Assembly (NCBI GenBank): GCA_025765595.1
Contig: JAIVFH010000084.1
Location: forward strand, 1 to 64,000
Source of the DNA: Obelidium mucronatum
Lineage: Eukaryota > Chytridiomycota > Chytridiomycetes > Chytridiales > Chytriomycetaceae
Direction: 5' to 3'
DNA: 64,000 nt
Shown here piece after piece: positions 1-51,199 of this stretch. The notes under the pieces were generated by a model. It was not told the DNA's origin and ran no database searches. It saw nothing but the letters and a program-made list of their open reading frames with translations. How positions within the stretch are numbered: the first letter of the stretch is position 1; every line of letters starts with the position of its first letter. Position numbers and translations under genes: made by a program.

Positions 1-3000
1 TGGTAACAATAAGAGTGGCAGATTGATGGGGAAAGTGTTTACATTATCGATTCCACCCTTTCTTGCTTTCGTAAGTTGGTGATATCGTTCAACTTCTAGC
101 GCGGCTAACACGTAAAACTTTTTGATTCGAAGAGGGTTCTTTCCGTTCTTGGCTTCCTCTTCAGCAAGCTATTTAAAAAGGGGGTTAGGCATATCCACGA
201 ACATCAAAAATAGAAAAAATAGAAGAAAAAAAAAGAAAAAAAAAAAAACACAAGCCCCACATCATATAACAATCTCGCCGACTTTTGACAATAATTTGCT
301 TTCCTGTATAACTCGATAGCAGTCAGTGGTTTATTCTTTTCAAGCAATTCGGCAGCATATTTGGCCAGGAGAGCTTCAATTCCTTGGAATCGATGCGCCT
401 CCGCCAGTTCGACAGCCATGTTCCATTTATTTAGCTGTACGCAAATGTCGATTACTGATTTAACGTCGCCGGCTTTGATGTATGCGGAAACGGCTTGGTC
501 GCAAAGGCCTACCGTGACAAACTTTTCTGCAATGTTCTGATCAAGGAGAAAAAAAAATTAATGCGTTGGATATACTATGGAAAGCAGCTGGGTAACACTT
601 ACAACGAGCAATGGACTGGTCTCTGACAGCGTGTATATGATCTTTTCGAGACTTTCGTAGTCTTCAACCATATAATGGCACTCAATAAGTTTCTCAACGT
701 TTCTCCCTTGTAGGTAGTATGTAATTGCTTGCGCCCTTGTTCAGCCGAAAAAAATAATAGAGACGTATTAAAACCCAAGTTGCAGCACAAAAAAAAACTC
801 ACCATCTCTGTCTTTCATAATAATAATCTCCGATAGAGTTCCACGCTTTTTCAAGCATAACATCATCTCCACTGCCACCGCTTTTAATCAACTGTACAAC
901 ACGGAACCAATCGCCCATTTGTGTGCGTAGACCAATCGCCAAATCTTTACGATCCATTTCCAAATAAATCTTTTCGGCGACTTCGATATGTCCAAAGTAA
1001 GCAGCAACTTCCGCTCGTTGCTTGTCCTTATCCTGTAGATGTACCGTTTGGCGAAGAAGAAACAAATGGAAACAAAACAAAAATGAGATACTCACGTCAA
1101 GTTTTTCAATCTTTTTCAAAAACTGCAACCCCTTGTAATCCAAGACTCGCACAAAGGCTTTCTGAGCAATTCCAAGCTCCAGTTTTTCTAATGCGCTATC
1201 GCTAATGAGTTTCCATAGACGTGGGTGCGGGTTTTCTTCCACATAGTTTAAGGCTTCTTGAAGACTCACGTTTGTGAGAATGGCTGCAGGGGGGGAGTTT
1301 AATTATAGTTGTATCAATTTTTAAAAGAGTGATTCTTTCGACTCTAAACCTCTCGCTTCACGCAAAGATCTGGAATCTAGAGATACAACGTGCTCTCGGG
1401 AAGGAGATTCGGGTTCCTTGAATAATTCATCGAGCATAATGGATTTGATTTGCAGGTTATCAAAAGATCCAATGTCTGAACAAGGAATTTGATTTAATTT
1501 TATACTCTCTAGGAGCGCTATTCTTACATCCAGAACAAGTTATGGGCTCCTCTGGAACATTGTTCTCAAATATAAACAATCTTGTTTTCTCCATGATTGC
1601 AAAAGATTCTGGATTGTCGGTCGCCCTGCAAAAAAAAAAAAAAAAAGATCGTTTCACATGTTGATATTTGAATATCTATGTTTTTGTTTTTTGTTGTTTG
1701 TTTCTTACTTACCATTCAATATCCCAAACATCCTTTCTCTCAAAGTCAAACAGCTTTCCGCCTTCCACGACGCTGTTGGCTGCAACATAGCTTCCATTAT
1801 TACCAGCACCCGCGCGTTTTCCAAGCTCCAGCATTTTCAACACGCCAGACACATCCAGCATCGCCAACCGGCTGCTATTGCAGTTCAATGATATAAATTG
1901 TGGACGAATGGGGATCGCGTATTTGGTTTCTAAACTGATGGATTGGAGGGCGATTTGTAGGAACGTTCCGCTTTGCCGAGCGACAATAAGCAGGCTGTCG
2001 CTTACAGATATCGCAGTGACAGGATCGGATGTATTTCTATTACCCAGTTTTTTTTTCAAAAAAAAAAATGTTGCAGTGCATGGTGAGAAAAAAAAAAAGT
2101 CGGTTACCTGTTCTTTGTGGTTTCCAAATTCAGCAAGGGAATTTCGAGGTTCACTGTGTCGCCAACATCGTCAATATGAAACATTCGATCTTTAAGCCCT
2201 CCTTCCTTTTTTCTGATGACTGGTTTTTGTTTGTTTGTTTGTTTGTTTGTTTGTTTTAATACACTTCCAACTTGATTTTGTTTGTGGGATGTTTTTTTTC
2301 CAACCTTCGAGTGCGCCAGATTTCTTGGGAGGCATCCTAAACTGCCAGCACAGAATGATTTCTGCTGACGCGGCGACAACGTGAGTTTTGGTGATGCGAA
2401 CGATTTTTGGAGCAAATGGAATGTGCCTTGTTTCAATGGCAGTTCCAATTGAGTTTGCGACCGTAAGAATATGGCTGAAAAGCGTTTTAAAGTTTAATCA
2501 GTGTCGATTTGGGGTTGATTTCAACTGTTTGCTCACTTTTCGCCATCATCAGCTTTGGAGACCAACAAACAATATTCACCGTGAGCCGTCATGATTGAGA
2601 GCTTATTCACTAATCTTTTATGAAAGAACATGTGGTTTTTTTAATGTACTTTTCATTTTAGAAACAAATACTCACTTCACGTGTCTCTCATTTGTTCTTG
2701 TATTCCAATACACAATTGTTGTCTCTGGCTGATCATACTTTTGAAACCCGTACGCAAGAACATCTTGAGCAAAGAAGCACCATTTATAGTCGGGGCGAAT
2801 ATTCGCAAAGTAGATGAACGAATCCACAGCGAGTGCGATCCGGAGGCCGCCATGTTCCCATGAAAGTGATGTTATTTTCTTTCCGGGAACTTTCAACGAT
2901 CTCAGATACTGTGAAGGGTATAATCAGCTTTTTTGTGAAGGTATGGCATTCTCTGTAAATACCTGGCCGAAAGGGTCATAAAATTGCACGACGCTGACTT

Positions 3001-4198
3001 CCTTTTCGTCTCCTTGGGCGCTTCTTGCAAACTGGATTCCTGATACAGCAAGGACCGATCCAAAATTATTCCATTTCACGTTGAGGAACCTCATATTTGT
3101 GTCAAGAACGAGAGGTGCTGGAAAAAAATTAAATGGAAATTTAGTCTGTGCAATTATTCGTCGAGAGATTTCGTACATTGATCTTTATCGTCTCTCATGA
3201 TTTGAATCTTTCCATTCTCAAAAGCTATCGCGAGACAAGGAGCTTTGGGCTCAACATATCCGTTGCTTCCATTATACCAATCCATGGCCGATATTTTCAA
3301 AGTTGTCGCTGTCTCACTGCAGTAAACAGGAAGTTTCGCCTGTGTTTTATTTTTCAGTTGTAATGCACAAAAAACCGCTCTTTGAAGGACAAACCAGAAA
3401 AGTTCCAGTTCCATCATAATAATGCAATTCTCCCGAACTTAATCCAAAGAGAATGCTTTTTCCATCCGGAGACCATTGAACATGTGAAAGGGTGACTTGT
3501 TTGAGCTCTTTGCCCCAAATTCGATTCCCATCCACAGATCCAACAATGACGGCACCTGCGTGAAAGAAAAGTTAAAGAGATTGTTCCAGCATTGGAGTTG
3601 TGAGATAGTCCATCATTTAAACTTGTACCATCTTCATAAATAATACAGATTCGAGACCCATCTTTGCTCCACTCCATATCCGCCACCACGCTTTTATTTC
3701 GGTTATTGATCATCTCTTCGTACCTAGATACAAAGACAGAGGTTTGCCGCGTCAGATGTCACTGCAAAAGATGTCGCATGAAAATTACCATACTCCTTTG
3801 TACAGAATCCAAACAATAATCAATCCATACTGATCTGAAGTTGTGAGTTTTCTGTGCTGCTCATTCCATTTGGAGACAACCACGGCGCCTGATGCATGTC
3901 GATGATGTCTTTAGCTTGTTGTAATAAAAAAGAAAGAATAAATAACAGCCTGACCAGTGTGCCCCTCGAGTGTTTGATTCATGCTCAAATTGCTAGTGGC
4001 CGCTGCCTCTGCCGGCTTCTTTCCATCGGCCGCAACAGCAGCTGATGCCGCAGCGGCTGGGGGGGTCTCGAGCTTCAGCACCTTCAGCAGTCCGTCTTCG
4101 CCCCCACACGCGATCCAGCCCTGGTCGTTGTCCCACGCGACGGTGCGCAGCTTGATTCCATTTGGAATCGCGATTTTCTTGGACAGAAACACAAACAT
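1..4198 (-). CDS. IFT121/WDR35: Intraflagellar transport protein IFT121 (WDR35), 3' end outside window
   Basis: Subunit of the IFT-A complex that carries cargo by retrograde transport in cilia and flagella. The N-terminus at 4198 begins MFVFLSKK and continues into a WD40 propeller ([16 protein letters not shown], then [18 protein letters not shown] blades), followed by the alpha-solenoid with landmarks [21 protein letters not shown] and [10 protein letters not shown]. These match the order of landmarks known in animal WDR35. At least fifteen exons are joined by GT-AG introns; downstream exons read as 1713-2036, 1528-1625, 1350-1475, 1096-1283, 803-1032, 603-735, 261-536 and 1-168, and each junction restores the expected frame. 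The exon at 1-168 is still mid-solenoid, so the C-terminus lies beyond the window. Its presence implies a flagellated cell stage. The start shares a 133 bp gap with the divergent NLR1 gene. Confidence 0.93.
2227..2256. repeat. (TTTG)n microsatellite in an IFT121 intron
   Basis: About seven tandem TTTG units lie inside an intron of the IFT121 gene, between the exon carrying the TKTHVVAAS block and the exon carrying the KDRMFHIDD block. It is a simple repeat with no evident function. A complementary CAAA-type repeat occurs near 25526. Confidence 0.8.
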
Positions 4199-4331
4199 TA
4201 TTTCTTTGCGAGAGAGAAGTTTGTCACGTTTTAATCCTCTGTGCAAGAAATCATTGTAACTGGAATGCGGATATTTATGCGTTATAAGTATATGTCCTTG
4301 TTCTAATTATAAGATCAACTTCAAATTAAAA
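4199..4331. promoter_or_regulatory. Divergent intergenic region between IFT121 and NLR1
   Basis: Only 133 bp separate the IFT121 start (4198, minus) from the NLR1 start (4332, plus), so both promoters must lie here or overlap the genes. It is AT-rich. I see no TATA box or known operator that I can name. Confidence 0.5.
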
Positions 4332-7300
4332 ATGCTCGGAACGCTTGAGACATTCATCTTCTCTCTCGTTGCTGTTCCTCAACAGGGCAAAGCTCGAATT
4401 AAGGTCTCTTACGATGGGGATACTTACATTATCGATCTTGAAGCCCAGACAATCGACTGTCTCAAGAAAGAGGTAATGATCTCATGGATCAATCATCACA
4501 CAACGCTGATCCACAGTTCCACACCTATTCAGATGAGTCGAAAGTTGGATCTCGATATTGGACAAGTGTTGATCAAGATAGAGTTCGATGGAGAGCTTTG
4601 CATTCTTGAAAGTGACTCCATGTTGGCTGAAACGATCGCACTTTCAAGTTCAACAAACAAACTTGCAAAAGTATTTGCATTTCAAAAGCCGCAAAAGACT
4701 TTGGCTTCTAGTCCTGTTCAAGGTGGTGGTGAACCAAAACCTGAAGTGTCTTTCAGAACTACAGTGGCAGTGACCTCTACAGCAGTATTAAATCCAAACA
4801 CTGTCACCGATTTGTTTCAGGAAAACGAGTTTGATGTTATGCTCTCATACCAGTTGAGTGGTGTTTTTCCACTTTCGCTCCACCAGCGGACTGAAATTTT
4901 GAATTAGGTGGGATTCACAAGCCAAGGTTCTTCTAATCAAGGAAGCATTGAAGACCCGCTACAATCTCAAAGTATGGATGGATATCGACAAAATGCGTGA
5001 TAACATCTTTCGTTCAATGGCCGAAGCCGTTGACAAGAGTAAAGTCGTTGCGGCTTTTGTCAACTCGAAATATCAGGTTTGTATTGCAGTATTTTTTTTC
5101 AGATCTGTAGTACTTAACATATTCCTTTTCAGAATTCTCCAAACTGCCTTTCGGAATTGAGTTACGCTCGTGATCGTAAAAAGAAGATTGCCCCTGCAAG
5201 AGACTTTCATGGCACAGAAGACGCCAAAGGCCCTGTCTATATCATGATTGCTGGAGCCTTATATTGCAACTTCACAGACAAGGAACCTGGTACCGCCGAC
5301 TTTGATTCCGAAATTGATAACCTCTACAAAAATATCCAACTCTATTTGGATGATATGGAGCGTTTAAAGAAGCAGCAGAATGAAGACAGCAAGCAGCAAT
5401 CGACTGCAGCTGTACCAAAGATTGCGGAACTGGAAAAAAGCAATCTCGAGAACTGGCTCAAACCAGTTGATTTCCAGGATGACGTTGGTTCGTACGCAAA
5501 TGCATATGTTAAGGGAACTCGTTTGTGGGCTGTTGAAATGGTCAACGAGTGGCTTCAAAATGAAGAGGAGCGCGTTTTGTGGCTTAACGGGGGCGCTGGT
5601 TTGGGAAAATCATTTATTGCCTGGCTCGTCAGTCAGAATCTACCGGCCACGTACCAACTGGGCTCCGCATTTTATTGCCGCCACAATGATGCTCAGAAAA
5701 ACAATGCCGAGAGCTTGGTAGCGACTTTGGCACATGATCTTTCAGTGGTTTTGCCAGAACTGCAGGCGCACCTTGAAATTGTCCGACTTGCTGATGAAAA
5801 ACGTGTTGCCGATGGAAACGTGAGCATTCTTTCAAACCCACGTAAGGCTTTCAAGAGTCTGCTGTTGGATGGTTTCAAGTCCATTCAAAATCCTCCACAA
5901 CGCAACATTTTGATTATAATCGATGCTTTGGATGAATGTGGAAAGCAAGGCGATGCTACTCGTGCAGCATTATTGGATTGGATCACCAAAGACGCTGCTC
6001 AATTCCCTGCATATATCAAGCTATTTGTGACCGCAAGGCCTGAAATCGACATTTTCGAGGCTCTTCAATCTCTGAAATCGTCCTGCTTGGTCCCATCGGA
6101 TGATCTTAATCAAGCCGATATTCGGACTTTCGTTGTGGATCGTTTCACCTGCGATTTCAATCCACAAGACAAGCAAGATGTCGAATCTGTTTCCGAATCC
6201 GCCAAAAAACTTGCAGAGAAGGCTGACGGTGTCTTTATCTACGCATCACTGGCGTGCGAGGAACTCAAACAACGTATTTTCACTTTGGCAGAAGCTAATG
6301 AAGGCCAAATCAATCTCAGCGTTCTACCAGAATTTGTCGAAGAATATCAAGGCGGTATTGATCAAGTTTACACGAAAGCGCTTGTTCGAGCCTTTGAGCA
6401 GGCTGACGCAACGTCCATCACTATGTTCCAGAAAGTCATGGGGGTTATTGTAGCAGCCAGAGAACCTCTCGCACAAGACACTATTGCAAGTCTTTTGGAT
6501 ATCAAGACTTTTGCAGTTGGATCCTTGATTATGCAAATTCGACCGATTCTGAAAATTGATGAAATGGGTCTAATCTCTGTTCTCCACAAGAGTCTGACTG
6601 ATATTCTGACGTCTCCTACTCGATGCGAGGATCCCCGCTTCCTCATCAATCTTGGACAAGTCCATTCCGATATAACTGTTCGAAGTTTCGATTTGATTCA
6701 GGAGCTCAACAGCACAACCCCCTCATCCAGTCACATCTACGCTTGCTCCTTTTGGGCTGATCATTTGAGTAAAACGAATCAACACGATTCTCGCGCTCTA
6801 TTAACCGCGTTGGAGAGATTCGTCCAAGATTCAATTGTGGATTGGGTTTTTGCTTTGGCTGTTGCTCAAAAATTAAATGCCACCCTTTCTCCAAGTCTGG
6901 AGTCCGCCATGCAATTCCTGAGCGCGCGGTTTTCTGTCGATGGCGGCAATGAAGTAGTTCCACGGCTGATCCACGCTCTTATGGATTTTTGTGCGGTCGA
7001 TGGTTTGGAGGAAACAGTCTTGAGTGAGGCGTGGCGAGCCGCCGTGAAACGAATTCACGAGCCTTATGCCGCCATTGGGGAAGTTGATTTCGAAATTAAA
7101 GACGAGGTGGACAGCTCAAAGACGGACGAATGCGAAGAAGATGAAGAAGAGGCTTTGGAAGGTACTGGCGAATCTCTTGAACTCAAACGCACCGAAGGTA
7201 AAAGCCAAAATCCACTTCATTTGCATTATTTGAATAAATTTAAATCAAAGTTATTCAAGACTTAGCGCTCCACTTGCCTGCTCCTGCTCCATCAAAGAAA

Positions 7301-8821
7301 AAACGGCAGCAACCAGTCGTGAAAGAGGACGACATTGTGCAGTCGGTGGAAGACTTTGATAGCAATATTCCTGACGAGAGTTGCATGCCTTTGAATTACA
7401 TTGAATCAAAAAGCGAAGGTACCGTTGAGTTGTACATCTTTGGGATTCTAATCCATGAGTAAAAGAGGGACCATCTGGCGAAGCGGAAAATGAAAAGAAG
7501 GAACGAATCCAGGAGCAAGTGGATGCAACTTTGCAGCAAATGAGTCTTGCTTTGAATCGCCAGGATAAGCTGGAAACACTTGTTCAACAATCGGAGGAGC
7601 TCTCGCAGACCGCCCAAAGTTTCAAGAAACAATCAAAGAAAGAGAGTATTTTCAGTCGCTTTTTCGGTGCCATTGGAGGTTTGTTGGTTGTTTCACAAAT
7701 ATTCTAAAAAGAAATGCTGAATACTTTGACTGTAAAGGGGGAGCAAAGCCGCCACCTGCGCCCGCACCTGCACCTGCCGTGGAAAGTAGTAAAATTCAGC
7801 CACAAGGGCCACTGGCAGAGGCAGCTCCTTTGGATGTGTCACTTCCGTCAGTTGGTTCTGCACAAGTCGCATCATCGATTATAGCTGGGGCACCCTTAAG
7901 GGCAGAATTTGGTAAGCTCGATCAATGACAAAAACAGCTGGTGCTGAATAAATTACCGAGATTCTTCATTGCCTCCAACGCGTCTCTCAAGTGGGCCGCG
8001 ACTTTCTCCTTCTCCAGGAACCGTATTGGAATCGTTACCGATGCCTGGTAAGGAATCGCATTGGATGAATATTCTTGTTTTACCTTTAATTGTGTTTTTG
8101 ATTTGAAGCCTCAGCGACCCAAACTTTGCCGCCGATTGGTAGTTCATTGCCGCCATCGCCGGCACAACAAATCCCAGCAACCAGTTCGTACTTACGCCCT
8201 CAGGCGCCAGGTTCTGCAGGCAGTTATTCGTCACCAGCGCCTCCTCCACCACCAGCCATAATTCCAACAAAACGTTCGTTCAACACCTCGATTCTTTTAT
8301 TTTCTTTGTTATTTAAATTGTTTTCCAGCAATTCAAGCACCACAGGCTCCTGCAACAATCAAACGCCATGGAACCACCAAAGTGTTTTTGTCTTTCCAGT
8401 TAAGTTCCCCAACAGCCCGCGCGATTCCCTCCTTTTTTTTTCTAAACTACAAAAAAAAAATAGCCCTGAATCATCCTCTTTCGTGACTTCTCTTTCCGCA
8501 TATCTTGTCGATACTTATGGAGTAAACATTCAAATCATTCAAGGACAATTCAAGGAAATGGATTCCTGCGATTTCGTGATTATCGTGCTTTCCCCAAAAT
8601 ACGAAACGTCAAAATGGCATCGCAAGGAAGCCGGTTACGCCGTCATGACCAAGAAAGAATTGATCCCGATTTTGGTGGACCAAGAAGGTGGTGTTGTTGA
8701 AGGGGATGAAATTCCTGGGTTGTCGATTGTGGGTGAAAGAGTTGTGGATTTGAGAGGAAGTAAGGCAGAGGATATTGCTGCCGAGGCGGTGGCTCGAATC
8801 GATGAAATGTCACTATTGTGA
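4332..8821 (+). CDS. NLR1: PB1-like/TIR/NACHT/R-SNARE-like/Pro-rich/TIR protein
   Basis: Predicted intracellular receptor of the NACHT NTPase class. Exons: 4332-4472, 4533-4852, 4908-5076, 5133-7197, 7266-7418, 7466-7678, 7738-7911, 7961-8047, 8109-8273, 8329-8398, 8464-8821. They total 3915 nt (1304 aa) with the frame closing exactly. Domains by residue: PB1-like fold about 18-100, with the acidic FDGELCILESDSMLAETI segment; TIR1 about 145-270, from ENEFDVMLSYQ to NCLSELSYA, where the E fits the TIR NADase glutamate; NACHT about 345-530 with Walker A GGAGLGKS and Walker B IIIDALDE, then a fungal winged-helix region; an R-SNARE-like helix about 962-1016; a Pro-rich linker; TIR2 about 1180-1304 (VFLSF, then SKWHRKEAGYA). 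I infer NAD hydrolysis triggered by NACHT oligomerisation. I see no signal peptide, membrane segment, WD40 or LRR sensor. A paralogue follows in tandem. Confidence 0.88.
7466..7678 (+). other. Exon 6 of NLR1: R-SNARE-like coiled-coil module
   Basis: This exon encodes a heptad helix reading VDATLQQMSLALNRQDKLET followed by LVQQSEELSQTAQSFKK. The spacing resembles the synaptobrevin/VAMP SNARE motif: a conserved Arg at the zero-layer position in the LxRxxKL context, then LxxxSExLxxxAxxFKK. The usual C-terminal membrane anchor does not follow; instead comes a short basic stretch (KKQSKKESIF) and FFGAIGG. The module is absent from paralogue NLR2. The call rests on motif resemblance only. Confidence 0.6.
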
Positions 8822-9359
8822 TTCAAAAAAGATTTTGACAGACATAATTATTTTGTGCAACCACTGACGATTCCATCGTCTATTTTGGTAATAACTTTTC
8901 GGTGGTACGCATATTACTACTAACTTAAACGAAGCGCACGTGTTTTCGATTAAGCGAGGATAGATTGCTTTGAATCCCTGCATTTGGCTACGAAAGTATG
9001 GAGCTCCCGTCACTTTTCCACTTTCAACTTGATCTGGGCTTCTCCCACAGGTCTCATATATCGTCGCAAGTATGACTTTTGTTTAGGATTTTTTGTGTCG
9101 CTGACTCTACTGTAGTACTTTGTTATGGCTGTTGCTTCTAGAAAATTAAACCACATTCCGCATTTAAGTTGCTGGCAGATCAACTTAATCCTTTAAGGCC
9201 TCTGGATCTTCGGAAGGGATATGGATGCGTCAGCTTGAATCTTTAAATTCTGCTGCGTAAGCCACGTGGAAGAATTCTTGAAAAGAGTCATCGTTACGCA
9301 GTTGCTCAAGGTCAGTCGGTATGAGTACAAGTCCGGTGAATTTTAATTTGATTTTGAAA
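8822..9359. other. Intergenic region between NLR1 and NLR2
   Basis: This 538 bp stretch holds no coding sequence I can support. It should contain the NLR1 3' UTR and the NLR2 promoter. An in-frame ATG at 9321 would add 13 residues to NLR2, but homology with NLR1 begins only at the ATG at 9360. Confidence 0.5.
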
Positions 9360-12300
9360 ATGCTAGGAACGCTCGAAACGTTTATCTTCTCGCTGATCGC
9401 TGCTCCTCTGCCGGGGAAAGCGCGTGTTAAAGTCGTGTACAATGGGGAAACTTATATTATTGATCTCGAAGCTCAGTCAATCGATTGCTTGAAGAAGGAG
9501 GTATTGTACTCAGCTAAAGAGAACAAAGGTCACGAAGCACCTAATCCACCAAATCTCAGATGAGTCGAAAATTAGACCTTGATACTAGCCAAGTGCTTAT
9601 CAAGATAGAATGCGATGGGGAGCTTTGCATTCTTGAAAGTGACTCTACGCTGGCTGAAACGATCTCTCTTTCAAATTCAACAAACAAACTTGCAAAAGTA
9701 TTTGTCTTTCAGAAGCAAGCTTTGATTTCTACAGACCATCCAAAGAATGAAATGTCGTCGCGTAGTATCGCTACAGTTACTACCCCAACCTCCCCAACAT
9801 TGGTGAATTCAAGCACAATCAATGATTTGTTTCCTGAAAATGAATTTGATGTGATGCTGTCATATCAGTTGAGTGTCACTTGTTGCATGATTGGAACGTC
9901 GCACTAATTGCTTTTCTCAGGTGGGATTCACAAGCCAAGGTTCTTCTGATCAAGGAAGCATTGAAAAGCCGATACAATCTCAAAGTATGGATGGATGTCG
10001 ATAAAATGCGCGACAATATCTTCCGTTCAATGGCCGAAGCCGTCGACAAGAGTAAAGTCGTTGCTGCCTTTGTCAACTCGAAATATCAAGTTCGTGTTGC
10101 CTTATTTTTGCATTGTCTCCTAAAAAAAGTTCCAATTTTCATTTTTAGAAATCGCCAAACTGCCTCTCTGAGCTGAGCTATGCTCGCGACCGCAAAAAGA
10201 AAATTGCTCCTGCTCGTGACTTTCATGGCGACGAAGAGGCAATGGGACCTGTCTATATTATGATTGCTGGATCATTGTATTGCAACTTTACAGGCAAGGA
10301 GCCTGGTACTGCCGCTTTTGATTCCGAAATCGATAGCCTCTACAAAAATATTCGGCTTTATTTGGATGATATGGAGCGTTTAAAGAAGCAACAGAATGAA
10401 GGCAGCAAACTTACGGCTCGAGTACCAAATGTTTTGGAATTGCAAAAGAGTGAACTGGAGATCTGGCTCAAACCAGTTGATTTCCGCTGCGATGTGGATG
10501 CCTATTCAAAAGCATATGTGAAGGGGACTCGTTTGTGGGCTGTTGAAATGGTGAATGGGTGGCTACAGAACGAAGATGAGCGCGTATTGTGGCTTAACGG
10601 AGGCGCTGGTTTGGGCAAGTCGTTCATTGCCTGGCTCGTAAGTCAGAGCTTACCTGTCACATATCAACTGGGCTCTTCATTTTATTGCCGCCACAACGAC
10701 GCTCGGAAAAACAATGCCGAGAGTTTGGTGGCTACCTTGGCATACGATCTTTCGTTGGTCTTGCCGGAACTCCGCACGCACATCGAAATTGTTCGACTTG
10801 CTGATGAAAAACGTGTAGCGGACGGAAACGTAAGCCTTCTTACAAACCCACGCAGGGCTTTCAAGAGTCTATTAGTGGATGGTTTTAAGTCCATTCAGAA
10901 TCCTCCGCAACGCCGTATTTTGATTATAGTTGATGCGTTGGATGAGTGTGGAAAGCAAGGTGATGCTACACGTACAGCATTGTTGGATTGGATCACCGAA
11001 GACGCTGCTCAATTCCCTGCGTATATCAAGCTATTTGTGACCGCAAGGCCCGAAATCGACATTTTACGAGGCTCTTCAATCTCTGAAATCGTCCTGCTTG
11101 GTTCCATCGGATGATCTCAATCAAGCCGATATTCGGAGATTCGTTTTGGATCGCCTTATTTGCGATTTCAACCCGCAAAACAAACAAGATGTCGAATCTG
11201 TTTCAGAATCTGCAAAACTACTAGCTGAAAAAGCCGATGGCCTCTTCATTTATGCGTCCTTGGCTTGTGAGGATCTGAAACGGCTGATTTTCGCATTAGC
11301 CGAACAAAATAATGGCCAAATCATTCTTAATCTTCTACCTAGCTTTGTTGAAGAATATCAAGGCGGTATAGACCAAGTGTATACAAAAGCACTTGTCAGA
11401 GCCTTTGAGAATACTGATACCGCATCAATCAGCCTATTTCAAAAAGTGATGGGTGTTATTATTGCAGCCAGAGAGCCGCTCTGTCAAGACACTATTGCAA
11501 GTCTTTTGAATATCAAGACTTTTGCAGTTGGATCCTTGATTATGCAAATTCGGCCGATTCTGAAAATTGATGAAATGGGTCTAATCTCTGTTCTCCACAA
11601 GAGTCTAAATGATATTTTGACGACTCCAACCCGCTGCAAAGACCCACGATTCTTCATCATTCTTGGTCAAATTCACTCAGATATCACGGTTCGCTGCTTC
11701 GAGTTGCTTCATGAGCTCAACGGCTCCTGCCCGTCTGCTACGGAAATCTATGCGTCTACTTTTTGGGCAGATCATCTGAGCAAATCAAATCTACAGGACT
11801 CCCGCACTCTTTTAAGCAAGATGGAGAGATTGGTTCAATACTCGATGGTCAAATGGGTGTATTGCTTGGCTTATACTCAAAGACTTGATGCTGTCCTTTC
11901 TCATAGTCTCGAATCTGCAATGCTGTTTTTGAGTTCACGTTTCTCCAGTGACGACAATAGTAATGAGAAAGTTCCAGGCCTGATTCACGCTTTTATGGAC
12001 TTTTGTCAGGTGGATAGCTTGGCGGAAGATGTTTTGAGTAAGGAATGGCGAGCTGCTTTGAAAAAAATTCATGAACCCTATGCTGCGGCGGAAGCGAAGC
12101 CAAAAGGAGGAGGATCCCACACCAGCAGAAGCTACTGAAAAAGATAAAATTCTTCAACATGGCCCCCTGCCTGGAGCGACACCTCATTTGAATGTATTTC
12201 TTCCATCCATTGGTTCTGTATCAATCCCGTCAATTACTACAACAGAGACACTTTCAGAAGCTGAAGCTGGTAATTTTTTTATATCATCATGAGCTTGTTC

Positions 12301-15300
12301 GGCTGAATGGATTGTGGTTTCGATCTCTGACAGGATCGGCGAAGGCTCACAAGCATCCATTGGTGTATGTGGTTCAAATAGCACCCTGGTCTTGTGATGT
12401 ATGCAGTGAAAAGAACGCCCCCTTGCGGTTCAGGTTAGATCCTGTTTCTGAGTGCTGGAAATTGGCTGATCCAGATACCAGATGTGCGCAGGGATGCAAC
12501 TGGGATGAATGCGGGACCTGTATCTCCAAAACCAGTTCCCAGATCGCCAACTCCGACGGCCATCTCCTTACCCGGAGAGACGGTACATCGCCCTACTATT
12601 GTGGGCAATCGGGTGTCACGTACTACAGCGAGTGCAAAGTGAGTATCGTTGCAGTCTTTTGTCTGGGTACATGTCTGACGCAAGTGGCTGGTACTTAGAG
12701 CTGTGGTGATCGCTGCGGTCCCACTGGTGGTTGCGACTGCATTGCTTGTCACAAAATCAATGGGCTGCTTGGACTCGCACAGAAAGTGATGCATGCTCAT
12801 CCACACGGGCTGATGCAGAAGCCAACTACAAGCACTATTGTTTGCAATGTTTGTTCGCAGACAATCACCAAGGGCCGTTTCTCGTGTGCATCGTGCAACC
12901 ACAACGAATGTCTCAGTTGCTCGGGTGAGTCTTTGTGAGCCGTGCAATACCCCATTAACTTCTTTGTTGCAGCGCTGACAGGCTCTGTGCTCTTCAACAA
13001 CGATCGGGTTATGATCAAAAAGTTCGCAAATGGCTACTTTTACTGCGGACGCAAGGCTGGATACTTCAACAACTGCAAGAAGTGCGACGGCACCTGTGGT
13101 CCAAACGGCTGCTGCTGCACATCTTGCCACGTGGCCAACGTTGCTAACGGCATCCGTGATTATGTCCATCCTGGCGGAGCCCGATGGCTATCGGAGGGAC
13201 AGTCCGACCAATGCAATCCACGCCAGTTATGCAGTCTAATCAATCTGCATCAAACAATTCAGGCCTACCAGCGACAGAACAATCAGATGAGTGCGTTGAT
13301 GAGTCGTTTCTTCAGACACCCAACTGCCAGTGGTGCTCCACCACCCAGCACCACGGCCAACCCCGATGATCCTCTCGTGTTGGCCCAGTTTGTAGGGATT
13401 GGGGCTGTAGTGTGTAAGAAGTGGTTTGTGCTTTTCATCTGAGCTGCTTTGTTTGATGTTGTACTTATATTTGTACGAATGCAGCCACAGCATGTCCTTC
13501 CCAGTGTGCCCAACTCACAACTACTTGCTCTGTAACCGTGAGCAAGAAAGCACTTCTTGTCCGATTCAGGAGTGTTCGATTTCCACTCCAGACAGCTGTA
13601 GTATATGCACCAAGTGCGGTGAATTTGGTCATATCGTTTCCAAGAAGCTGTTCATCTCGCGTGGAGAATCCAACTTTGCTGCCCGTGGAGCTGATGGTGA
13701 AAACTTGACCGTTATCCCAATGCTGCTTTTCAGTTGCCCCAGTTGCTGTACTCTGGAATTTCCAACATACCAAGACTCATTGATCACGTTGTTGGACATT
13801 ATGGCTGACGAAACGGCTCTACAAATTCTGAAGGCCAAATTGATCAAGTTTAAGCACCGTTGCACCAACTGTCCATCGAGCCCGACCATTATTTTGGCAC
13901 ACATTGAGAAGGCAGAAGCTTCCAACTTGGTATTTTTTTCTCTCTTTCTTCTTTATAGTTGTTGCCATTCATTGTCTGATGTGTCTGATGTTTTCATGTT
14001 AGAATCTCTACGTAGCCCACACCCTCAACAGAATGGGGCCGTCCGATACTCAGCTCTCGGTCGGAGAACTGCTCCTCAACACGGTGGACAATCTCGACGA
14101 GCTTGAATGGAATCCAAGTGCGTCCTCAGAGGCCGACGACGATGATAAGCCAGATGACAAGCCAGAGGAAAACTCGCAAGTCCAAACGATCCGTTCCATC
14201 AGTCAATTCCATCAATTTAGTGGCGGGATCAGCCCATGTCGCAGTCCTGTTCTGGGCGAATTGGTCGCAGCCCAGTAAGGTGTTTAAGCCCAGATTCGAG
14301 GATTTGGTGGGTTAATTTTTGTAAACTATGAGGCCAGTCAGCTAACTTGGTGATGGCCAGGCTTCTGGAACTAGCGCGCTTCGCTTCGCCACCTTCGATT
14401 GCTTTGCGCACAGCATTTCCGAATCAGACCGTTCCAAGATTCTCCAGCGCTTCTCCATCAACAATTACCCCACTACTATCGTGTTTGACAAGGGTGTTGA
14501 ACACGACCGTATCAATGGAGCTGGACAGGCGACTCTTTTGATCAACAACATTATCAACGATCTCGCTGGTGTGACACACAACGAGTTCACTGAACAGCTT
14601 GTAAAGCTTGGAAATTTGGAAAGTGCGAATGTTCAGATGAAGTTCCACAACAGTATGGGTGGAATGTATCCAGACCTCAAGTTCAAGGTGCTTGCAGTCT
14701 ACAAGGTTACCAACAAGACGTTGAGCGACCGGTTTGAGGCCAAAAGGGCCGCTCTCAAGTGTTTCCCTGCCGAGGCGTTCCATGCGACGAAGTCAGGCAA
14801 TGTTCAGTCCATCTGCAGCAACAACGTTTCTATGGGCAAGATTGGCCATACTGACAAGGGATGCTTTGGCGGCCGGTCTCTACTTTTCGCACTACGCGGA
14901 TTACACGTTTGCTTATGCCCACGATTCAACAGCCCGACCCATCAAGGCAGGTGAAAAGGGAACGGTCATTATGTTCAATGTTTTGCTGGGTAGGACATAT
15001 CGTGTGCAGAACTTGGCGCTTGTTGCATCAAAGGTGGATGGCTACGACAGTATTGTTTCGCCAAATGAGTGCGAGTGGATTATTTTTGATAACAGTCAAT
15101 GTCTTCCTGTGTATGTGTTCGAGTTTGAGGCCGAACACTCAGTGAAACCGAAGGTCGGCGGCGCGTGGGAAGAAGGAGGCAGTCATAAATGTGAGCTGCC
15201 CACCGCTGCAAAAAAATCCAAGAAACTATTTTTGTCTTTTCAGTTGAGTTTCAGTTTAATTTCATTGAGGAATACTTACACGCCTTAAATCTAGCCCTGA

Positions 15301-15652
15301 CTCCTCCATCTTTGCATCCCATATTGCCAAACTCCTATCAGCCACAAACAAAGCAGACATTCAAATTATCCAGGGACAATTCAAGGAAATGGATTCCTGC
15401 GATTTCGTGATTATCGTGCTTTCCCCAAAATACGAAACGTCAAAATGGCATCGCAAGGAAGCCGGTTACGCCGTCATGACCAAGAAAGAATTGATCCCGA
15501 TTTTGGTGGACCAAGAAGGTGGTGTTGTTGAAGGGGATGAAATTCCTGGGTTGTCGATTGTGGGTGAAAGAGTTGTGGATTTGAGAGGAAGTAAAGGAGA
15601 AGATATTGCTGCCCGGGCAGTGGCTCGAATCGATGAAATGTCTCTTTGGTAA
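9360..15652 (+). CDS. NLR2: PB1-like/TIR/NACHT/zinc modules/Trx-like/PARP/TIR protein (apparent frameshifts)
   Basis: Tandem paralogue of NLR1. Early exons 9360-9500, 9560-9867, 9921-10089 and 10149 onward keep the same junctions. PB1-like, TIR1 (NCLSELSYA), NACHT (GGAGLGKS, IIVDALDECG) and the winged-helix region follow as in NLR1. After a linker (LPSIGSVSIPS, like LPSVGSAQVAS in NLR1) come: a C1/ZZ-like finger (HKHPLVYV, CDVC, RFRCAQGC, DECGTC, joined across an intron at about 12435); two YxCG/CGP cysteine modules; a Cys-rich segment (13500-13760); a thioredoxin fold with WSQPS in place of WCxxC and YPT at the cis-Pro (14200-14560); a PARP catalytic domain with H (FHATKSGN), Y (GLYFSHYAD) and E (ECEWIIFD) positions; then TIR2, whose first strand lies in the same exon as the PARP end. 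Single-base insertions at about 11066, 12107, 14190 and 14872 break the raw frame. They may be assembly errors or may mark decay. A split into two genes near 12150 is possible but less likely. Confidence 0.75.
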
Positions 15653-15943
15653 TGTTGCACGCGTTAAAAGCCGAAACAAAGTTCACTGAGTTTGATTGTA
15701 TCTTAATCACCTGCTCGATGGCAGAATCTGTTCTTATACTTTTGAAGGTTGTACAACTTTGCAGGGGTGTCAAAATGTCAATGTCAAAAACTCCATTGGT
15801 CGACAAAATAGAAATCAAAAAAAAGGAGTTTGAGGGTTTCTGGCGTGGAAAGTCGTTGTTTAAACTTTCGAACGACACTGTAGGTCATTTCTCCCAAATC
15901 ATGCTTCCTCTAGAATTCTAAAGAAAAATGCAAACTTTTGGCT
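15653..15943. repeat. Downstream copy of a duplicated TIR-tail/3' flank segment
   Basis: After the NLR2 stop, about 80 bases to near 15735 resemble 17251-17335, which leads into the start codon of the chromate transporter (shared landmarks TGCACGCGT and GCAGAATCTGTTC against CCAGAATCTGTTC). An open frame at 15646-15921 shows no recognisable domain, and I leave it uncalled. Confidence 0.55.
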
Positions 15944-17002
15944 TTATTCTTTCAACATTCCATAAATCTTTCCAGCAATGCGCATCAGCGATTCAGGGTT
16001 TGGATGACCTCCGTCGGCAAGCTCCAATGAGCACTCCTCCAATTCAATACGTTCATCAAGACTACGAAGAAAGTTCCATTGAATGTAGTTTGTCACTATT
16101 CCCATCACCTCATCCAAATTGTCAAGCTCCGCTGCCACCTCACAACCCAACAAATCCTGTGCCATTCCCTGTTCAAAGTCATCCTTCTTCGCCGCGAACA
16201 ATACAAACGCGTTTTTTCCCTCGACGCAGTACAAATTCAAAGTGGCCATTCGCTTTGAGAATATCGCCGTCCATATCTTCTTCGACCTCGATGGTAACAT
16301 CTCCATTGAATAAGTTGGAAACACAAATAAGAATTGGGGCAATGAAATGAAGCCTTTGCGCTTCCTTGCCAGTGGTGAAAGGGCCGAAGCACCTCGTGGC
16401 CATTGTAAGATATTTGGCAAGAAGCTCAAACGCATCATTTGGGAGTGGTTCGACAGGCAGTATAAGCGGAGACGTCTTGAAGACCGATTTGACGTCATTC
16501 CAAGTTACATAGGAGTAGCCAACTGAGCCTCCTGCTTTCATCTTTTTCTGCGACAAAATTTTGTTCAACTGCTCCCATCGCCGCTTTCTTGAGGCGTGAG
16601 GTTGTTTGATAGGATAAGCTGGATTCGGAAGAACTGCTACTAGACGATGCTGGTTTGACTGTTGTTCTTATTAATTAATAATCGAATATCAAAAACAAAA
16701 CACTTGCAAGTCTTCTTTGGAACGACAACATACAGCGCAGTTGTTCTTCCTTTGCCCATTCCACTCAAAGAGACATCAAACTCAAGAGGCCCCTTCGTGG
16801 AGTCGGTGATGTCTTCTCTTGATGAGTAGACTTTGAGGGAAACCGCAGATACCCCGCTCAACCCCGCTTTGTTCTCCTGATAAACAGCGTCTCTGAAGTC
16901 CACCACATCCGCTTCAGAGCTGATAGAGACGGTGTCTGCACCGACTCCCTGGTACGCCTTTCCTTCTTCGTCAGTCAAGTAATACCATACCTTTTGATTC
17001 AT
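15944..17002 (-). CDS. Crinkler-type effector 1: ubiquitin-like header plus restriction-endonuclease-fold domain (frameshifted)
   Basis: Member of the Crinkler (CRN/CR) effector class, also known from chytrids such as Batrachochytrium. The first exon, from the ATG at 17002, encodes the header (VWYYLTDEEGKAYQGV, then PLEFDVSLSGMGKGRT and VVVPKKT). An intron with an apparent GC donor (gcaagt) follows near 16707. The second part carries RRWEQLNKIL and GYSYVTWNDV, then a nuclease-like core with a KKDD segment followed by GMAQD spacing, ending at 15944. Near 16200 the frame shifts by one inserted base next to the expected catalytic ExK position, and no Glu is obvious there. Another shift lies near 16590. 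So the gene is either inactive or affected by the same insertion errors as its neighbours. It lies between two copies of a TIR tail. No secretion signal is visible. Confidence 0.7.
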
Positions 17003-17011
17003 TTGAAAGAA

Positions 17012-17250
17012 AAGTGCTTTCTCCAAAATGCGAAACGTCAAAGTGGCATCGTAAGGAAGCCGGTTACGCCGTCATGACCAAGAAAGAATTGATCCCGATT
17101 TTGGTGGACCGAGAAGGTGGTGTTGTTGAAGGGGATGAAATTCCTGGGTTGTCGATTGTGGGTGAAAGAGTTGTGGATTTGAGAGGAAGTAAGGCAGAGG
17201 ATATTGCTGCCGAGGCGGTGGCTCGAATCGATGAAATGTTGCTTTGGTAA
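17012..17250 (+). pseudogene. 5'-truncated third copy of the C-terminal TIR segment
   Basis: The segment begins abruptly in the sequence shared with the NLR1 and NLR2 last exons (VLSPKCETSKWHRKEAG, where the intact copies read PKYET) and runs to the same terminal IDEM motif and a stop at 17250. It lacks the first TIR strands and any promoter, so I call it a relic. The break lies only about ten bases from the start of the antisense Crinkler 1. Confidence 0.8.
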
Positions 17251-17320
17251 TTGTTGTGCACGCGTGAACAAGCCTAAAAAAAGTTCGATGACCTTTCTTG
17301 TATCCAAATCCCCCGTGACG

Positions 17321-48597: not shown

Positions 48598-51199
48598 TCA
48601 CACCTGTTGGTACTCCACTTCCGCCTTTTCAACAACATTCTCCACAAATCCTGATAATTCACTTCCAACTCCAACTCCAAAGAATTCTTGTCGGAGATTC
48701 TTGTTATTCAAGTTGAGAAGTATAATTTCATCAATGTTTGGATGATCATCACTGTGGTAGACAAAGGAACCACCCTCATTGGATTCGGCCATTACCTTGC
48801 TGTCGTAATGGGTACAGCAGATGAACAATACCCTGCGATGTCCTTTCCGAGGAGTCCCGTGAAACATTCGGTCGAAAAGTCGACATTCCTGCGAGAGATG
48901 GGCCCATGAGAATGCTGTACGGCCGTAATTCTTTACAGCAAGACCTATGGTGAGGACTATTGAATCTGACTGGTCAGTTGCCGAACCAATCAAAATGGCA
49001 TCAGATGAAGAAGACTTTGGCAATGGCTTCAAACAAATTGGACCAGGCATGATTCGATCAAGCAACTTAGGCCAACAGTCTGGATGAATAGTGCTTGAGT
49101 TCATCTTCATTGTCTTCTGTGAGCCTAATTTTGTGATTCTAGGCATTGGGCGGACAAATGAAGAGAAAATCACGGATTGATAAGTTCCAAAGTTTGCGTT
49201 TTTGAAGAACTTTGGAAGAACAAGGCCTGGACTCTGCGGATGACTGAACATGTCTTGAAACCGTTTCAGGAACATCCACTCAAAGACATTTGCGTAATTG
49301 ACAGACACTCGAGTGAAATTGCCAACATGCTGAATGTATTCTCTGAATGGCAATAAATAGCTCTCCATATATGTTTTCACGAAAGGATGTACAAACAATC
49401 TTGCTTTTTCGATAGTTCCATCCCAGCCAAAGTTTGAATTGTATGCAAGGCTATCAAGTGTGAGATTTCTACCACCGGCATCCTTAATCACTTCTCTGAG
49501 ATTCACTTCAGTCCCGGATTCCGCATATTTCAGGAGCCGAACTACATCGCCTTTAAAATTGTCCAAAGCAAGTTTATCGTAGAATTGCTCCCAATCTGGC
49601 ATTTCGGGAGGTTCATTGAGTTGGAGGATTTCATCATAAGATTTGCACTTTTTGAAAGCTGTAAGAAGAGATCGAGGGTGACCATTTGTCTGAAAAAATA
49701 AATGATTGGCAACAACTTGGGATAGCTCCGGTGTAAGACCAAGGCGCGTAGATATTGTATCCGTTCCGGCAGATGAAATCAACGTCCTTTCCATGATCTC
49801 TTCAATCGCCTTTGGACGAAGGCGGTGGATATTTAAACGCTCGAAATTCAATCTGTTGAATGCAATGCCCAAAGGTCGCACCCCAAGGTAGTTGAGATAT
49901 GACGAACGACCGAGAACCACAAAAAACACATTTTTCAAAGGGAGCCATGCGTCAAGAATATCTTCACTGAACCGGAGAAACTCGTCGCGCTGTTGAAAGT
50001 CATTAAGCTCTTTTGATAAGAAAGCTTTTCCAATTTCATCCAGCACAATGAACACAGGACCGCAGACATCAGTCAGATCTTTCAGGAAGTCACGGGCAGT
50101 TTTCGGCGGTTTTGAAAGTATAGCTGGGGGGGTATCGAACATGTCCTTCAAAGCCCCAGACAAGAGCTCGATCATGACAGCATCAAACGAGTCTGTCAAT
50201 AGAGCTCCACGGCGAAACTCAATTGCGACAGTGTGACAGCCACAGAGAGTTTTCTGAAACTCATTTCTCGCCGCAACATTGGGCCACGTTTCCCTCGATT
50301 TGTGGATATAGAGTCTTCCAAACGCAGACTTGCCCAAACCAAAATCATTGTCGGCAATAGGGATAATCCACTCTGCACCTATTGTAGAAACAGCACGATA
50401 GAATTTGGACTGATGGATTGTTTGAAGTTGCTTGATAGCGTCCGTTCGATTGACAAAATGCAGTGAACCGTTCTCAAGATAATGGACCCGAGGCACTTCG
50501 TCCTTCCACCTTACATCGACATCCTTGGACCGAGACTGCAGAGATTCCAGAGAGCCAGGCGGAGCTGGACGATGCGATGATTAGCTCCAAATGAAGTCAA
50601 AACTGAAGTTTGACTTACATGTCTTCTTTGGAACGACAACATACAGCGAAGTTGTTCTTTCTTTGCCCATTCCCTCTAAAGAAACATCAAACTCAAGAGG
50701 TTGCTTCGTGCAGTCGGTGATGTCTTCTTTTGATGAGTAGACTTTCAACTTTGGCGCATCGATTCCAGCAGCCTCCAACGACAACTTATTCTCCTTCCAC
50801 ACCTCCTTTCTCAAGTCAGCTACACCCACTTCAGACCGGATAGAGATAGTGTCTGCACCGACTCCCTGGTACGCCTTTCCTTCTTCATCAGTCAGGTAGT
50901 ACCACACAGCGCGGCCGAAAGCAAGCGATTCATCACTCGCTGCATTGGAAAGGGTCTTCAAACTCTCCTTCGTGCTTCGATTTGCCATTTTTTTCGCTTG
51001 TTTTTTGTGCATTTTTCTGAAAAGAAACAAGAGAAACAAGCGCTTTTTCAAAGTCAAAGTTTGATTCTTTCAGCGCCGCTTTTGCTTTTGCGATTGGCGC
51101 AGAAGTTTCCTTACAAAGTCTGGCGGCAAGTGTCGCCACTGATGGCTTTGGCTTTGGGGCAGTTGCGAAGAAACGGCGTAGGAATGACAATGTTGGCAT
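48598..51199 (-). CDS. Crinkler-type effector 2: EF-Ts-derived N-terminus, header, P-loop NTPase, nuclease-fold domain
   Basis: From 51199 the first part copies mitochondrial EF-Ts (FLRRFFATAPKPKPSVA, LCKETSAPIAKAKAAL, then NRSTKESLKTLSNA) including its presequence. It passes directly into a Crinkler header (VWYYLTDEEGKAYQGV, PLEFDVSLEGMGKERT, VVVPKKT). An intron at about 50522-50622 sits at the same codon as in Crinkler 1. The large exon encodes a P-loop NTPase (Walker A within NDFGLGKSAFG, Walker B VFIVLDEIGKAF) and a C-terminal domain with DAILIGSATDQS and IGLAVKNY, fitting the D and K of a restriction-endonuclease fold. An extra A in the run near 50990 breaks the frame between the EF-Ts part and the header. 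If real, translation would start at a downstream ATG (51012 or 50987). The start lies two bases after the stop of the upstream gene. Confidence 0.75.

Follow-up and report, generated by a model that had tools for sequence, protein, structure and literature searches.

Does a single chytrid gene join two TIR domains, a NACHT ATPase and a PARP domain in one chain, and from what parts was it put together? This question is raised by a locus of Obelidium mucronatum, a chytrid of the family Chytriomycetaceae, within the stretch of 64,000 nucleotides analysed here (the window; contig C84, positions 1-64000, of an assembly of 48.3 Mb in 694 contigs). The original prediction placed at this locus an NLR-like receptor with NAD-consuming domains in an order not known to have been described. 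According to our analysis, the gene (gene B) probably encodes a TIR-NACHT-TIR receptor of NLR type belonging to a tandem pair, whose linker would act as an integrated-domain slot holding a captured Cys-rich/Trx/PARP unit.

The tandem pair and the domains of gene B

Two tandem paralogs were annotated in the window, gene A at 4332-8821 and gene B at 9360-15652. Over the first half of gene B the two share 78% DNA identity, with 85% and 75% amino acid identity in two pieces. The features are the following:

4332..8821, + strand: gene A, open paralog, gene model of 11 exons and 1,304 aa (TIR-NACHT-SNARE/Pro-rich linker-TIR)
7492..7641 (also given as 7466-7678), + strand: R-SNARE motif of the gene A linker, profile match; none such in gene B
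9360..15652, + strand: gene B, 11 exons as modelled; its ten introns (48-73 nt) were positioned manually on GT and AG borders
9360-9500, 9560-9867, 9921-10089 and 10149-12269, + strand: gene B exons 1-4 of the model, two frame breaks inside the last
12334-12638, 12699-12924, 12973-13411 and 13485-13929, + strand: gene B exons 5-8 of the model
14003-14306 (one break), 14361-15242 (one break) and 15295-15652, + strand: gene B exons 9-11 of the model
9423..9712, + strand: PB1-like N-terminal segment, under cut-off (PB1 0.0033)
9851..10298, + strand: TIR1, over three exons (TIR_2 1e-14), putative catalytic Glu codon at 10170-10172 (SPNCLSEL)
10536..11060, + strand: NACHT/NPHP3_N ATPase (NPHP3_N 5.5e-25, NACHT 3.9e-8)
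12137..12269, + strand: remnant linker, 84/130 bases matching the 3' part of gene A exon 7738-7911
12354..15179, + strand: cassette (2.8 kb), matched at 92.3% identity by a pair of inverted copies on contig C6 of this genome
12699..12749, + strand: CGP cysteine module 1 (SCGDRCGPTGGCDCIAC), motif only, from translation
12795..12920, + strand: C1-like finger (C1_2 5.9e-5, under cut-off)
13077..13127, + strand: CGP cysteine module 2 (KKCDGTCGPNGCCCTSC), motif only, from translation
14217..14550, + strand: thioredoxin-like fold, borders carried over from the stand-alone protein P0001
14640..15129, + strand: PARP catalytic domain, borders approximate
15220..15649, + strand: TIR2 (C-terminal), profile match 9.2e-10
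17014..17252, + strand: further, incomplete copy (the third) of the 3' end of TIR2, DNA match

The sequence establishes this domain order. Profile searches confirmed TIR1, NACHT and TIR2 of the original prediction, and the two CGP modules were seen in translation; Trx and PARP were recovered through the stand-alone relative, while the PB1 segment and the C1/ZZ fingers stayed below their cut-offs. Specifically, PB1 scored 17.8 bits in gene B against a cut-off of 23.6 (12 in Siphonaria), and the C1_2 finger 23.7 bits against 26, with ZZ reaching only 0.014. The NACHT translation contains GGAGLGKS and LIIVDALDE, which we take to be Walker A and Walker B. With a NACHT ATPase bearing both motifs and a TIR N-terminal to it, gene B belongs among the NLR/STAND proteins; the profile scan of its pieces showed no LRR, WD40, ANK or TPR repeats. 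The first strand of TIR2 (KKLFLSFH) is located in the exon that ends the PARP and is followed by an intron at 15243-15294, and its putative catalytic Glu codon lies at 15458-15460 (SKWHRKE). The putative catalytic glutamate is invariant in 6/6 aligned TIRs (genes A, B and Siphonaria) and is presumably the residue needed by TIR NADases. In TIR1 it aligns at CLMEL of the flax L6 TIR (E 0.023), and for TIR2 a sequence search gave no PDB match. No deposited protein of gene B was among the matches of searches restricted by length and shared words.

Concerning the cassette, the Pfam scan showed no family covering the whole Cys-rich part with its CGP modules. The Trx profile reached 2.7e-9 in P0001 and only 0.015-0.25 in pieces of gene B. 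Similarly, the PARP profile reached 2.5e-12 in P0001, above cut-off, and 0.0018 and 0.03 in two pieces of gene B, both under the Pfam cut-off. Both domains thus exceed the cut-off in P0001 and in the Entophlyctis protein P0007, and not in the broken pieces of gene B. At the CxxC site of the Trx fold all three proteins read SQPS, so that the CxxC redox motif is missing. The H-Y-E positions of the PARP are all kept in gene B, P0001 and P0007, as had been predicted; in gene B their codons are H 14781-14783, Y 14881-14883 and E 15073-15075, the last placed by aligning P0007 to PARP12 and PARP13 structures. Gene B and C6 carry HAT where Entophlyctis has HGT. A sequence search found PARP13, PARP12, PARP10 and PARP14 as the nearest solved structures of the P0007 PARP, and these human proteins are not known to carry the third-position glutamate. 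Comparison of the 882-base Trx/PARP stretch with phages and of P0007 with viral contigs revealed no relative.

Contents of the linker and origin of the cassette

Gene A has ten introns of 47-68 bases, a single open frame and an acidic, proline-rich linker with an R-SNARE motif. The Synaptobrevin profile matched an exon piece of gene A (6.8e-7, 29.5 bits, cut-off 26.4), while the whole gene scored 25.8 bits, just under the cut-off. A protein of Siphonaria sp. JEL0065 (P0003, 1,376 aa) shares the TIR-NACHT-SNARE/Pro-rich linker-TIR layout, aligns to 65% of gene A with 65% identity, and gives stronger matches (7.4e-10 and 39 bits for a piece against the same cut-off of 26.4; 6.1e-8 for the whole). 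Both keep an arginine at the position of the SNARE motif that we take to be the "zero layer", and the gene A linker, with its piece over cut-off and this arginine, is of R-SNARE type. A profile of the two SNARE segments found R-SNARE structures in 11/14 hits (best E 9.9e-7), comprising YKT6, VAMP4, VAMP8, endobrevin, VAMP7, synaptobrevin homolog 1 and VAMP2. Of 13 synaptobrevin matches in the genome listing, gene A accounts for one and its allele for another, and none falls in gene B. Profile scans of gene A found no PARP and no LRR, WD40, ANK or TPR family and did not list PB1, and its N-terminus had no PDB match. The deposited P0002 (965 aa) corresponds to the gene A model running into the intron after the exon closing at 7418, and lacks the SNARE motif and TIR2 because it reads into that intron. 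AlphaFold models made from two-sequence alignments had a mean pLDDT of 27 (P0001) and 36 (P0002), too low to be of use.

In gene B the slot holds the cassette. P0001 is O. mucronatum BDR26DRAFT_891409, its residues match contig C6, and gene B is 96% alike to P0001/C6 over a 170-aa Trx-PARP piece, which establishes by homology where the cassette comes from. The stand-alone Trx-PARP protein of Entophlyctis, P0007, is 53% alike to P0001. Both proteins share the Trx(SQPS)-PARP unit with gene B but have no NLR part and no TIR. Conversely, gene A and Siphonaria P0003 differ from gene B in having no PARP cassette, the SNARE motif filling the slot. The C6 gene ends in GGAWEK and a stop, whereas gene B reads GGAWEE and continues in the same exon into TIR2. 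Since both unfused states exist, namely two TIRs and NACHT without PARP (gene A, P0003) and Trx-PARP without NLR (C6, P0007), gene B would most simply be a derived fusion of a two-TIR NLR with a Trx-PARP gene.

Parts of this fusion have evidently been homogenised after its origin. Over 297 bases of TIR2 the copies are 95.6% identical. The cassette is a mosaic relative to C6, with dS of 0.03-0.10 over 14003-14870 and 0.23-0.44 around it, the middle reaching up to 98% DNA identity, and we read this pattern as probable gene conversion. C6 is not a perfect reference, as it shows a frame difference near its start, where the first residues of P0001 are read in another frame; additionally, gene B and C6 read a short stretch at about 13180-13270 in different frames. 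Contig C6 carries a large inverted repeat at 4583-17190, with two Trx-PARP copies head to head (98.6% alike), which may be a real duplication or an assembly artefact. Downstream of gene B, the partial TIR2 copy at 17014-17252 is joined to 16680-17014, which has further copies at 50613-50907 and on contigs C319 and C494.

Continuity of gene B and its frame breaks

Continuity along the whole gene had been proposed in the original prediction, and the two junctions of the cassette fare differently in this respect. The end of the PARP and the start of TIR2 are located within one open exon (14875-15242), so that on the assembled sequence the PARP-TIR2 fusion is firm whatever the fate of the frame breaks. 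The TIR2 intron of gene B lies at the same place and in the same phase as the intron in the TIR2 of gene A and that in TIR1. Continuity from NACHT to the cassette, on the other hand, would need an intron at 12270-12333 and a crossing of the break near 12107. As an NLR with an integrated foreign domain, gene B therefore has one firm join (PARP-TIR2) and one inferred join (NACHT-cassette).

Four frame breaks, at the places that had been predicted, are present in the assembly (near 11066, 12107, 14190-14217 and 14872), and all shift the frame by an identical step. The allelic contig C319 (96.4% identical to window 1-11573) is open across the break at 11066, with a short stretch at about 11143-11185 out of frame relative to the window, and C6 is open across those at 14190-14217 and 14872; for the break near 12107 no comparator is open. 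Because three of the four breaks are bridged by an open frame in an allele or in the stand-alone paralog, the concern about frameshifts is reduced. Since C319 stops short of the cassette, no second allele of the fusion was seen. Relative to the window, C319 carries 18 single-base extras, one two-base extra, one fifteen-base extra and no losses in the coding exons of gene A, 3 single-base extras and 6 losses in the coding part of gene B, and 18 single-base extras and 8 losses in noncoding sequence. These differences are indel noise of the long-read-assembly kind, with a clear bias only in gene A. As a side observation, C319:17080-28675 corresponds to window 1-11573 as a haplotig rich in single-base indels, and the contig pairs C7/C276 and C5/C215, which gave matching hits, look allelic too.

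Substitution patterns demonstrate, as far as sequence comparison reaches, coding constraint on gene B in the past. Between genes A and B, dN/dS is 0.10-0.14 at dS of 0.78-1.22, and the final 97 TIR2 codons show 8 silent against 4 replacement changes. The cassette compared with C6 shows 0.32 over 795 codons, eight segments ranging from 0 to 0.64. Low values were found in the C-terminal half of the PARP (0.15) and the CGP1/finger exon (0.11), and high ones in Trx segments (0.64 and 0.56, on ten and three changes), in the CGP2 exon (0.54), where the two sequences partly use different frames, and, without any such excuse, in the first Cys exon (0.54 on 29 changes). Over 475 amino acid sites with Entophlyctis as outgroup (three pieces), 12 changes were found only in gene B and 8 only in C6, with 16 further sites differing in all three, so that the cassette appears about as constrained in gene B as outside it. 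Around the first and the last break dN/dS is low on both sides, which suggests that the breaks are recent or assembly errors; residual errors or very recent events are more likely than old decay.

Other readings of the locus concern the same junctions and breaks. A recent pseudogene, i.e., a formerly working fusion disabled by the four frameshifts, would agree with the number of breaks, four within about 5.7 kb of modelled coding DNA as against none in the 3.9 kb of gene A, and with the faster change of gene B in its first half (30 changed sites in B and 13 in A, out of 497; in the second half 24 and 19 out of 323, less uneven). We regard it as rather improbable, given that all four breaks make the same frame step, a relative or allele reads through three of them, dN/dS stays low on either side of the first and last, and the assembly carries indel noise such as the 18 single-base extras without a single-base loss in gene A. 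A split into two genes, with a truncated TIR-NACHT gene closing at 12138 and a Cys-rich/Trx/PARP-TIR gene starting at an ATG such as 12192, is unlikely. Frame 1 does run into a stop at 12136-12138, an open frame leads from ATG 12192 into the cassette with no intron needed, and constraint is absent from the linker remnant (pN/pS 1.07), although the gene A frame alone is stop-free there. However, the two genes would be spaced by only 53 bases, the linker past 12138 is homologous to the gene A linker exon and ends at a phase-1 donor identical in position to that of exon 7738-7911, and NACHT and TIR2 form one chain in gene A and Siphonaria. Finally, unrelated pieces could have been joined artificially in contig C84, as the assembly contains haplotig contigs and the large C6 repeat, and each junction was found only in C84, in a search that also missed the C6 stretch shared by the query ends. 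This is highly improbable: sequence specific to gene B crosses both junctions (12086-12354 and 15179-15357), neither cassette flank matching C6 or the rest of the window (E <= 1e-10), and a single exon holds the end of the PARP and the start of TIR2 and keeps the TIR intron position of gene A.

Related receptors and the possible role of the linker

A receptor with two TIRs and a PARP under a NACHT switch, as originally predicted, is thus encoded by the sequence, but its parts are less isolated than was stated. As far as the accessible text of the open-licence literature goes, neither a protein with the domain order of gene B nor a fungal NLR with an internal PARP or SNARE was found; the novelty of the order is nevertheless tempered by plant PARP-NLRs, chytrid TIR-NLRs and the shared two-TIR frame. 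In the available part of one survey, PARP is listed as an NLR-integrated domain in A. lyrata and T. urartu (PMC4759884). Gene B resembles these plant NLR-IDs, in which a foreign domain, PARP included, is fused to an NLR (PMC4759884), and differs in its fungal NACHT frame, its two TIRs, its internal slot and the Trx-like and Cys-rich parts that accompany the PARP. A PARP-NLR fusion is already listed for plants, and gene B is a variation on it. Fungal NLRs of the HET-E type, or with TIR/HET-like N-termini, also present a TIR-clan domain followed by NACHT in the accessible descriptions (PMC4986451, PMC9815663), but in gene B C-terminal repeats were not found and a second TIR stands at the end. 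A 2014 survey, in its available text, found no NLRs in chytrids (PMC4986451), and TIR-NLRs of Chytridiomycota are mentioned elsewhere (PMC9815663). In the RNA vault, TEP1 (a TIR-like NADase with NACHT) and PARP4 occur in one particle (PMC13174449, as far as accessible), although as separate proteins, whereas gene B would hold the three kinds of domain in one chain. Gene A recalls Neurospora PLP-1/SEC-9, a fungal NLR tied to a SNARE (PMC10197012); in Neurospora the SNARE is a SNAP-25-type protein in its own right, while the R-SNARE motif of gene A lies inside the receptor. Fungal NLRs, PLP-1/SEC-9 and HET/TIR have been reviewed (PMC10197012, PMC12881547); in the available main texts, "integrated" is absent from PMC9815663 and "decoy" from PMC10197012 and PMC12881547.

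The two-TIR frame is common to gene A, Siphonaria and, judging from profile matches, at least one more locus of the genome with a weaker second TIR. Near 83.7-86.3 kb of contig C74 and on contig C278 a TIR, a NACHT and a second TIR follow in order, the second TIR under the Pfam cut-off; the ORFs of the two are alike enough for these to be possible alleles of a single locus. Near 116 kb of C74 a weaker second TIR was detected (0.007), and on contig C18 a TIR match lies upstream of NACHT and WD40.

Returning to the receptor with a captured linker unit, the slot would be filled by the R-SNARE motif in gene A and Siphonaria, while gene B would have lost the SNARE exons and captured a copy of the separate Cys-rich/Trx-like/PARP gene without its stop codon. 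Presumably read as a single transcript, the protein would oligomerise through NACHT once a factor of an invader hits or binds the integrated module, and the assembly would join TIR1 and TIR2 for the predicted cleavage of NAD+. The PARP, with its intact H-Y-E, would serve as bait and perhaps also as an ADP-ribosylating co-effector. Alternatively, the PARP could be the main effector, NACHT triggering ADP-ribosylation and the TIRs acting as assembly modules, a reading compatible with any of the gene structures weighed above. It draws on the H-Y-E residues and on the nearest solved relatives of the P0007 PARP (PARP13, PARP12, PARP10 and PARP14), PARP7, 10, 12 and 13 being described as antiviral in the accessible text of PMC8718269. 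The TIR glutamate, kept in all six aligned TIRs, and gene A, which has no PARP, speak against it, and we consider it doubtful.

More tentatively, the two-TIR NLRs of chytrids may possess an exchangeable bait slot, occupied by an R-SNARE mimic in one copy and a captured Zn-Trx-PARP unit in the other, so that one locus would guard membrane fusion as well as ADP-ribosylation against invaders. In plants, integrated decoys hold a central place in NLR biology. Such a slot would be their fungal counterpart, and the genome would still contain the gene from which one bait derives; the NAD+ chemistry of TIR and PARP would also stand under a single NACHT switch. Whether the linker cargo decides what the receptor senses becomes a testable question because the tandem pair differs mainly in the linker, the donor gene persists and unfused relatives exist in other chytrids. 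Among further NACHT genes of the genome, two near-identical ones (L058 and L060) carry a second TIR, another (L059) a weaker second TIR, and one (L062) a leucine-rich-repeat stretch downstream.
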